The translations under genes and the position numbers were made by a program. From positions 26,197 to 90,196 of the forward strand of contig CAIUUO010000183.1 in NCBI GenBank assembly GCA_903902325.1: DNA of 64,000 nt, in the 5' to 3' direction. This stretch comes from an uncultured Bacteroidia bacterium (GTDB lineage: Bacteria > Bacteroidota > Bacteroidia > Bacteroidales > Prolixibacteraceae). How positions within the stretch are numbered: the first letter of the stretch is position 1; each line of letters opens with the position of its first letter. Positions 8,955 through 44,981 of the stretch are shown piece after piece. A model generated the notes under the pieces. That model saw only the letters and a program-made list of their open reading frames with translations, did not search any database and was not told the origin of the DNA.

Positions 8955-9577
8955 GACTTTCTGAATAAGATGGTTAAAATGCGCGGTACCGACTGTTTGT
9001 TGTCATTGTCAAAATACTCTTTGATGTCCATGATTTCAAATCCATATTTTTTAGCTGATTCTGTAAAATCAGATACATGATGGTTGAAACAGTTGACGAT
9101 CTGCAGTCCTTCGGCCGTTTCAAATCTGGCTTTTGTACCGGTATATTGTTTAAACGGATGAAGTTCTCCCAGGTAAACTATTCCTCCCTGATTTAAGGAA
9201 GTGGATGCCTTTTCAAAAACCGGATCCAGATTCTCAATGTGTTCAAGCACCAGACTGAAAACAAGGAGGTCATATTTTTGGGTAATGAATGTCCATGGTT
9301 GATTCATATCGGCTTGCAGGAATTGTACTTTTCCTGATTGAATTTTCTTCTTTGCCCTTGACAGCATTTCTTCAGACAGATCGACAGCCAGTATTTCCTT
9401 CGATTTTGACAGCAGCCATCTTGTATTTTTTCCAGTACCGCAGCCGATTTCAAGACAAGAATCAAATGCCAGATCAGCCAAATTATCTTTTAAGGCCAAT
9501 GCTTCAAGATCCCTTGTCTTGTTGTCGTTGGTGTCGTACTGGTCGGCCCAGCTGTCGTATGCTTGTCTGACTTCCAT
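8951..9577 (-). CDS. Class I SAM-dependent methyltransferase
   Basis: CLEIGCGTGKNTRWL motif I, LAVDLSEEMLSRAKKK; overlaps VOC gene by 4 bp. Confidence 0.88.
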   Translation of the reverse strand: MEVRQAYDSWADQYDTNDNKTRDLEALALKDNLADLAFDSCLEIGCGTGKNTRWLLSKSKEILAVDLSEEMLSRAKKKIQSGKVQFLQADMNQPWTFITQKYDLLVFSLVLEHIENLDPVFEKASTSLNQGGIVYLGELHPFKQYTGTKARFETAEGLQIVNCFNHHVSDFTESAKKYGFEIMDIKEYFDNDNKQSVPRILTILFRKS

Positions 9578-42723: not shown

Positions 42724-42966
42724 TCATCCCACATTCGTGAAAGCAGCAAGCAATTCTTGTGCCTGAGTATAATCCGAACCGAAAATTTTGACGTTTACGG
42801 GTGCAATCCCTCCAGGGCTGACGATCCACGGTTCAATTACCGACATCAGCTTATTTTCAATAAATACCATTATACCATTGGCTTCAAGCAAACCCTTGAC
42901 CATGGTGGCTTGGTACAAATCTCCTGAGAATACTTCAACAATTTCGTTTTTGTTGTTCATCGGCAT
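42724..42966 (-). CDS. DUF2007-type putative signal-transducing protein
   Basis: EIVEVFSGDLYQATMVKGLLEANGIMVFIENKLM. Confidence 0.8.
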   Translation of the reverse strand: MPMNNKNEIVEVFSGDLYQATMVKGLLEANGIMVFIENKLMSVIEPWIVSPGGIAPVNVKIFGSDYTQAQELLAAFTNVG

Positions 42967-43062: not shown

Positions 43063-43548
43063 TCATTGATTTCCAATCAGGGCAAAAAATATTGCAATCA
43101 TATTTCTTAGTCCATGAATAAGGACAACTGCGATATATGCATCACTCCAATTGTTTTTTCGCTTATAAAGAATAAAAGCGGTAGATAGAACTATTCCAAA
43201 AAAAATTCCGAAGAAAATGTATGTAATGTTATAGTTGTGTAACAATCCAAAAAGGATTGAAGATATTGCTATTTGAAAGGTAATCTTTTTTGTAATGAAT
43301 CGGTCAACAAGAAAGATTACACCTGCCTGAAATATAATTGTCTCAATAACAGGAGCAATAATTACTGCTTCAATGATTTTAAAAAATTGAATTTCCCCTG
43401 ATGAAGACCTTGGAGGAAGAAATAAGGCAATAGGAATATAAAATACAAATATTAGATAGGATAATAATAGTGAAACACCTACGAATGGAGCAAATCTAAG
43501 GTTCCTCCACCAAATTAATAAGCGTGCAAATTTCTTTGAGATTTTCAT
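43063..43548 (-). CDS. CPBP (CAAX/Abi)-family membrane protein with degenerate motif 1
   Basis: Multiple TM segments; motif 1 ETIIFQ (instead of EExxxR), motif 2 FGLLH, motif 3 HGLRN; start taken at MKISKK, since the track start 43575 falls in a hairpin arm. Confidence 0.65.
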   Translation of the reverse strand: MKISKKFARLLIWWRNLRFAPFVGVSLLLSYLIFVFYIPIALFLPPRSSSGEIQFFKIIEAVIIAPVIETIIFQAGVIFLVDRFITKKITFQIAISSILFGLLHNYNITYIFFGIFFGIVLSTAFILYKRKNNWSDAYIAVVLIHGLRNMIAIFFALIGNQ

Positions 43549-43563
43549 GAATGAAATAGTGAG

Positions 43564-43603
43564 AATGCTAGCCAAATTTGATTTTTTTTATCTGGCTAGC
43601 ATT
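43564..43603 (-). promoter_or_regulatory. Inverted repeat, 11-bp perfect arms, between GG-peptide gene and CPBP gene
   Basis: aatgctagcca (43564-43574) / tggctagcatt (43593-43603), 18-nt A/T-rich loop. Confidence 0.75.
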
Positions 43604-43608
43604 TATCT

Positions 43609-43785
43609 TTAATAACCATGTCCAGTCCAGTTCGCTGGCATTTGTGATCTGTAATAGCTCGTATAGGTTGCGATGTGTCCAATCAGCCCGTCTCCAGTCA
43701 TGACTTCATATACTACTTCAGCTATTTTCAAAAAAATATTTCCGCCTTCAACTTTTTCTAAGTCACTTTTTTCCAACTCTTTCAT
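43609..43785 (-). CDS. 58-aa double-glycine-leader peptide (bacteriocin/pheromone-like precursor), absent from ORF track
   Basis: Translation: MKELEKSDLEKVEGG|NIFLKIAEVVYEVMTGDGLIGHIATYTSYYRSQMPANWTGHGY; fits the L-x3-[DE]-[LI]-x2-[IV]-x-GG spacing. Confidence 0.72.
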   Translation of the reverse strand: MKELEKSDLEKVEGGNIFLKIAEVVYEVMTGDGLIGHIATYTSYYRSQMPANWTGHGY

Positions 43786-43892
43786 AACTCAAATTTATTA
43801 AATTTTAATTTAAAAATCTCCCCACTTTCTTTCCCGTGCAGCAGGTTTTGGCACGCGTAACGTTACAAAACCAAAGGAAAGGAAAGCCACTC

Positions 43893-44237
43893 TCAAATTT
43901 TGACAGTGCGGAAATTTGTTTTGTTAAAATCCAATAAAAATGCAAGATTATAAAAACCACCGTTTACAATTTGAATCTCTTTATTTGACAACTCCTTCAG
44001 GAAAAACCCGCAAATGAATTTTACCTCGCTCGAGTAAATGTAACTTTGGTAACAGAAACTGAACTCAATGGGGGCTCCCATCTCCCGGAGGGTATCAATC
44101 AACCGGTAAAGTGATGCCTCAGAAATTGCAAGTCTTCTGGCAAGGTCATGTGGGGATCCCGTTGCCTTTAAACGGATCAATTGGTCGACCCTCTCAATTA
44201 ATTGGATATGCTGAAGTAGTTTGTTCATAGATTTCAA
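43893..44237 (-). CDS. HTH-domain protein with C-terminal double-glycine motif
   Basis: DLARRLAISEASLYRLIDTLREMGAPIEFS (HTH); ELSNKEIQIVNGG|FYNLAFLLDFNKTNFRTVKI at C-terminus. Confidence 0.7.
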   Translation of the reverse strand: MKSMNKLLQHIQLIERVDQLIRLKATGSPHDLARRLAISEASLYRLIDTLREMGAPIEFSFCYQSYIYSSEVKFICGFFLKELSNKEIQIVNGGFYNLAFLLDFNKTNFRTVKI

Positions 44238-44339: not shown

Positions 44340-44840
44340 TGTCGACGCTCTTCGGCAAAACCCCGGAGTCGATCCATTTTCCACATTCTTCATCATCCTG
44401 CCTCAATCAAAATCGGCGATTCAGAAAATGCCGCACCCGCACGCTACTATCGGCAAATCCCCGGGGTCGAATTCATTAGCACATTAGCACATCAGCACAT
44501 TAGCACATTCATGTACCCATTCACATTTTCACATTTCCACATTCTTCATCATCCTGCCTCAATCAAAATCGGCGATTCAGAAATCGCCGCACCCGCACGC
44601 TACTATGGGCAAATCCCCGGGGTCGAATTCATTAGCACATTAGCACATCAGCACATTAGCACATTCATCTACCCATTCACATTTCCACATTTCCACATTC
44701 TTCATCATCCTGCCTCAATCAAAATCGGCGATTCAGAAATCGCCGCACCCGCACGCTACTATCGGCAAATCCCCGGGGTCGAATTCATTAGCACATTAGC
44801 ACATCAGCACATTAGCACATTCATGTACCCATTCACATTT
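44340..44840. repeat. Tandem array of a ~156-bp element: partial unit + 3 units
   Basis: Anchor ccacattctt/ccacattctc at 44381, 44537, 44693, 44841 (spacing 156, 156, 148); each unit contains atcggcgattcagaaatcgccg-type hairpin, gcacattagcacatcagcac 8-mers and cacatttccacatttccac 8-mers. Confidence 0.93.
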
Positions 44841-44883
44841 CCACATTCTCCCCGCCAGAGTTTCAGCCTCTCCGTCATCCACA

Positions 44884-44981
44884 CCCCACACCCCATGCCC
44901 CATGCTCCATGCCCCATGCTCCATGCTCCATGCTCCATGCTCCATGCTCCATGCCCTCTGCCGTCTGCCCTCTGCCCTCTG
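44884..44981. repeat. 14-unit heptamer array (CCMCATG/CTCCATG then CCCTCTG)
   Basis: 98 bp, exact 7-bp period: ccccaca ccccatg ccccatg ctccatg ccccatg ctccatg x5 ccctctg ccgtctg ccctctg ccctctg. Confidence 0.92.

Follow-up and report, generated by a model that had tools for sequence, protein, structure and literature searches.

The window, meaning the whole stretch of DNA analysed here (64 kb; G000:C183:26197-90196), belongs to a 4.79 Mb draft genome (MAG data). Genes for an HTH regulator, a peptide and a CPBP membrane protein lie on one of its strands, accompanied by the following features:

43893 to 44228, minus strand: HTH_11-type regulator of 111 aa (Pfam HTH_11) with an internal GG leader, ELSNKEIQIVNGG (Gly 90-91), and a 20-aa tail
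43888 to 43908, no strand assigned: near-palindrome CACTGTCAAAATTTGAGAGTG, 21 bp, across the HTH stop codon, a putative operator or hairpin (genome count; related loci)
43825 to 43866, minus strand: conserved intergenic block GTAACGTTAC.CGTGCCAAAACC.TGC.GCACG...AAAGAAAG in the gap between HTH and peptide genes (sequence sharing)
43609 to 43785, minus strand: GG-leader precursor peptide of 58 aa (translation; paralogue and G094 homologue), with leader 43741-43785, core 43612-43740 and stop 43609-43611
43564 to 43603, minus strand: stem-loop with a 14-bp stem between peptide and CPBP gene (folding against dinucleotide shuffles)
43063 to 43548, minus strand: CPBP/Rce1-like membrane protease of 161 aa, immunity candidate (PF02517, E 3.9e-8, over cut-off)
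42724 to 42966, minus strand: DUF2007-related gene, downstream (Pfam DUF2007, E 4e-10)

The 58-aa ORF had been proposed in an earlier sequence-only reading and was borne out letter for letter, its translation being MKELEKSDLEKVEGG followed by NIFLKIAEVVYEVMTGDGLIGHIATYTSYYRSQMPANWTGHGY; the leader residues described there (L at -12, D at -8, L at -7, V at -4 and GG at -2/-1) and a mature part of 43 aa with 0 Cys were recovered as well. With hydrophobic residues at -12, -7 and -4 (L, L, V) in front of GG, as C39/PCAT leaders have them, the leader resembles those of C39 substrates, for which the pattern F(-15)..I(-12)...L(-7)..I(-4) has been given in a review (PMC10885120), and cleavage is predicted. 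The chance level of such a match was set by 60 dinucleotide-shuffled versions of the 64-kb window, in which the strict GG-leader pattern occurred in 0.3 ORFs on average (largest 2) against one ORF in the window itself; by itself the leader pattern is weak evidence, not beyond chance, and at this expected rate it was dropped as the sole evidence for the peptide. An open frame with a fortuitous match to the short pattern would be in keeping with that rate, but it is contradicted by a syntenic homologue that agrees in leader and C-terminus as well as by a paralogue in the same genome, and a chance ORF is thus highly improbable. The ORF is regarded as genuine because homology, not the leader pattern, takes it beyond chance.

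Both homologues have a conserved GG leader, and a frameshift in the peptide ORF of relatives, named in the sequence-only reading as an argument to the contrary, was not seen. The paralogue (C140:918-1073 or 918-1088; MKELDKSELQEVEGG followed by FIWLL...) is 50% identical to the window peptide (E 2e-4). The G094 peptide of 61 aa, which begins with MKELNEMELKEVKGG up to its GG site and ends in YYRDQAGIPASWSGHGY, agrees with that of the window at its N- and C-terminal ends (search E 0.0026; pairwise E 3e-10) and has the common tail PA(N/S)W(T/S)GHGY, reading PASWSGHGY in G094 and PANWTGHGY in the window. It is the one core homologue outside the host's own genome, and an order-wide search of 394 genomes with a two-sequence peptide profile yielded no further convincing one; the closest named relatives found were uncultured Bacteroidales/Bacteroidia MAGs.

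In G094 the C-terminal end of a C39 ABC exporter is followed by a 108-aa HTH protein, the GG peptide and a CPBP protein, the latter three in the same order as in the window. Peptide, CPBP protein (39% identical) and intergenic block are common to both loci, the HTH proteins being only about 30% identical. Sister MAGs have HTH proteins with about 80% identity to that of the window, yet the peptide core that follows differs (in L065: MKELCEMELREVNGG followed by SSSYEKAMATLGLIAVGF...), and different cores sit behind the same element in the sister HTH loci. Because nearly identical HTH proteins occur with other cores and the G094 cassette with a distant HTH protein, these comparisons suggest that peptide-immunity cassettes may move between HTH types, as expected of competition loci.

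That the leader suits a C39 exporter, as had been claimed, gained weight from two C39 ABC exporters, both over the Pfam cut-off and both elsewhere in the genome, where the sequence-only reading had proposed to look for them, and from homologous loci with the exporter directly upstream of the HTH gene. Loci of close HTH homologues comprise a HlyD-like protein, a C39 ABC exporter, the HTH gene, one or two GG peptides and membrane proteins. One of the two exporters of the host (on contig C248) shares its sequence type with these HTH-linked exporters (KIKQRDITDCGAACLAS) and is accompanied by a HlyD-like partner and a second HTH gene with a GG motif (HTH-GG), without a peptide alongside. The earlier reading missed the operon context, namely the GG motif of the HTH protein, the CPBP gene, the intercistronic hairpin and the absence of an exporter here, and this context is more informative than the peptide alone.

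The HTH gene and a ribonucleotide reductase-like ORF are separated, at the site of the exporter in relatives, by a 156-bp unit in three tandem copies (97% alike) and an array of the 7-bp CCATGCT (44378-44954). An exporter remnant upstream of the window HTH gene was not detected by tblastn, the matches within the window being distant other ABC and HlyD-like genes. With neither exporter nor remnant at the locus, the cassette could therefore be decaying, that is, a non-functional, drifting remnant of a bacteriocin operon after exporter loss; the repeats in the expected place of the exporter and HTH homologues of relatives broken by stop codons would fit such a course. However, the HTH, peptide and CPBP ORFs are all intact, the HTH domain shows pN of 0.08-0.17 against pS of 0.56-0.82 in comparison with six relatives, and exporters are present elsewhere in the genome, so that decay appears decidedly unlikely. 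Since the exporter is missing at the locus and C39 exporters are encoded elsewhere, export of the peptide in trans would be the simplest reading.

It is probable, in our estimation, that the locus encodes a C39-processed, unmodified class II-like bacteriocin or microcin peptide, with the CPBP protein as immunity candidate and with export in trans. The cassette would consist of a regulatory element, the peptide and the CPBP membrane protein, situated downstream of the HTH regulator. A C39 ABC exporter with its gene at another site of the genome, the closest-type candidate being that on C248, would cleave the leader behind GG and secrete the 43-aa core, which could then act by killing, and the producer would be protected by the CPBP protein. 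This bacteriocin reading is favoured by the leader, the paralogue and the homologue, the synteny with G094, the two exporters, the differing cores and the hairpin in front of the CPBP gene (-18.8 kcal/mol, z -4.8 against dinucleotide shuffles). Against it count the lack of an exporter at the locus, the single outside core homologue and a core which is not clearly cationic (K1 R1 H2 against D1 E2). The CPBP protein scores 33.9 bits with PF02517 against a cut-off of 22.4, and its motif 1, ET..FQ rather than EE..FR, likewise counts against the bacteriocin reading.

The label of a secreted antimicrobial or signalling peptide in the sequence-only reading was a reasonable guess, and its antimicrobial side would be favoured by the linkage to a CPBP gene and by cores that differ between sister loci. 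GG leaders mark pheromones too, and with a regulator gene directly upstream the peptide might be a secreted pheromone sensed by the population, with the CPBP protein as a processing or receptor component instead of an immunity protein. In streptococci, CPBP/CAAX proteases have been linked to the way bacteriocins are regulated and produced (PMC9298176); however, a histidine kinase or receptor gene is absent near the window locus, sister loci with a nearly identical HTH protein have other cores, unlike a conserved signal, and the peptide is present in few genomes, which makes a pheromone unlikely.

Compared with known systems, the bacteriocin-like peptide shares with the bacteroidetocins (Coyne et al. 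2019, PMC6671954) a 15-aa GG leader, a short core, a C39 ABC exporter and occurrence in Bacteroidetes. Those peptides, however, contain two or more Cys, and their loci lack an obvious immunity gene and usually include one for a thiol oxidoreductase (PMC6671954), whereas the window core has no Cys and a CPBP neighbour; with 0 Cys it was excluded from this group. Class IIb bacteriocins (lactobin A/cerein 7B type) are similar in their GG leader and unmodified hydrophobic cores, and relatives as well as the C140 locus of the same genome encode two tandem GG peptides. The window differs in its single peptide, a second adjacent precursor gene being absent and only one GG-leader ORF present within the 64 kb, in its Gram-negative host and in family models staying below their cut-offs in the Pfam/NCBIfam search (Bacteriocin_IIc, 13 bits against 27.1, E 0.11; bacteriocin_sig, 13.1 bits against 15.7, E 0.12); with a single peptide, class IIb was excluded as well. 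Like the CPBP/Abi-type proteases of bacteriocin loci, a PF02517 member lies directly downstream of the precursor gene, but it deviates from them in the motif 1 mentioned above, and its protective role is putative. Bacteroidota, with few characterised GG-leader toxins, would gain a bacteriocin-like cassette whose peptide core is free of Cys and whose own immunity candidate is a CPBP protein.

The GG leader of the HTH regulator is a more unusual part of the locus than the peptide. The protein (P0003, directly upstream of the peptide) matches PF08279 (HTH_11) with 26.3 bits against a cut-off of 25 (E 6.7e-6), as do 11 of 16 HTH proteins of relatives, and ends in FLKELSNKEIQIVNGG followed by FYNLAFLLDFNKTNFRTVKI; the NCBIfam cerein-type model remained below its cut-off with P0003 (E 0.002). 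The GG pair is among seven invariant columns of a 16-sequence alignment. Of 84 HTH homologues surveyed, mostly from the host's family and some from elsewhere in the phylum, 44 have an exporter immediately upstream, and GG occurs in 41 of them against 16 of the other 40 (Fisher P = 1.2e-7, which overstates independence because the sequences are kin), and two of the three exceptions with an exporter (L049, L083) have the GG segment in frame behind a single stop codon. In L049, L083 and L079 such an in-frame stop lies just before or after GG, the remaining tail being readable beyond it. GG-bearing HTH proteins are present in several other families of the phylum. Among sequences picked only for having GG, hydrophobic residues were found at -4 (95%), -12 (96%), -15 (84%) and -7 (68%), other positions being mostly polar except -13 and -3, so that -15, -12, -7 and -4 fit the C39 recognition pattern (PMC10885120). 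An AF2 model of the HTH protein was weak (pLDDT 48) and without a significant PDB match, hence a hint only.

The HTH protein has a C39 leader of its own and, by binding to the peptidase domain or being cleaved by it, probably couples cassette transcription to the exporter. More generally, HTH-GG proteins may, as we tentatively propose, be undescribed export-coupled regulators captured or cut by the exporter peptidase, or else the released tail may be a regulator-encoded pheromone; through recognition of the leader near the C-terminus, cassette transcription would track exporter availability. If HTH-GG proteins are truly C39 substrates, they would provide a direct molecular link from peptide export to peptide-gene transcription with no kinase needed. 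HTH proteins with a C39 leader were not found described in the literature searched, most subscription papers lying outside its scope. The long leaders of Nif11/nitrile-hydratase type (cited in PMC6363468) are alike in being a folded domain ending in a C39 GG site, and HTH-GG proteins differ from them in a DNA-binding-type domain (HTH_11), in occurring as one copy beside the exporter and in a very short tail. At L064:8700-15882 (G070) an HTH-GG gene is followed by two GG-type precursors, further ORFs with an apparent resemblance to peptide-modification genes, and a C39-type exporter; HTH-GG may therefore not be confined to unmodified peptides. A homologue of the DUF2007-related gene was found by tblastn in two related HTH-GG loci (L054, L056).

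The near-palindrome occurs once in the genome and is present in nine related loci (L053-L059, L065, L067), where it encodes the tail end of the HTH protein as TLKI-stop in some and in another frame (SKFESG) in others. Because of this coding in two different frames, tail conservation was partly rejected as proof of a peptide product, and the low synonymous change in the tail may be due to the overlap with the palindrome. The palindrome may be an operator of the HTH protein or an RNA hairpin, the data fitting either. The intergenic block is common to the window, L053, L065, L067 and G094 (L061); with five sequences, covariation was too weak to assign it an RNA structure, and an Rfam scan of the window gave nothing over threshold. 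In G017 a 210-nt repeat (L054:2825-3034 and 9257-9466) contains the HTH 3' end together with palindrome and intergenic block, its copies preceding separate GG peptides as if by cassette duplication.

At the C140 locus (L008:918-1573) two tandem GG-peptide genes and one for an 86-aa hydrophobic protein form an operon, reminiscent of a two-peptide bacteriocin and a putative small immunity protein. DUF805b RNA (RF02914), absent from the window, is located at L008:861-897, shortly upstream of the ATG of the paralogue, and likewise shortly upstream of a GG-leader peptide ATG in L011, L026, L027, L043, L046, L056, L062 and L104. It is present in 103 of 141 genomes of the host's family, mostly before other genes, and was rejected as a GG-peptide-specific element, as clear GG-leader ORFs follow only about 5 of the family's 30 best loci. 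The copies at GG peptides have a common extra upstream GTGCACAAAACT block.
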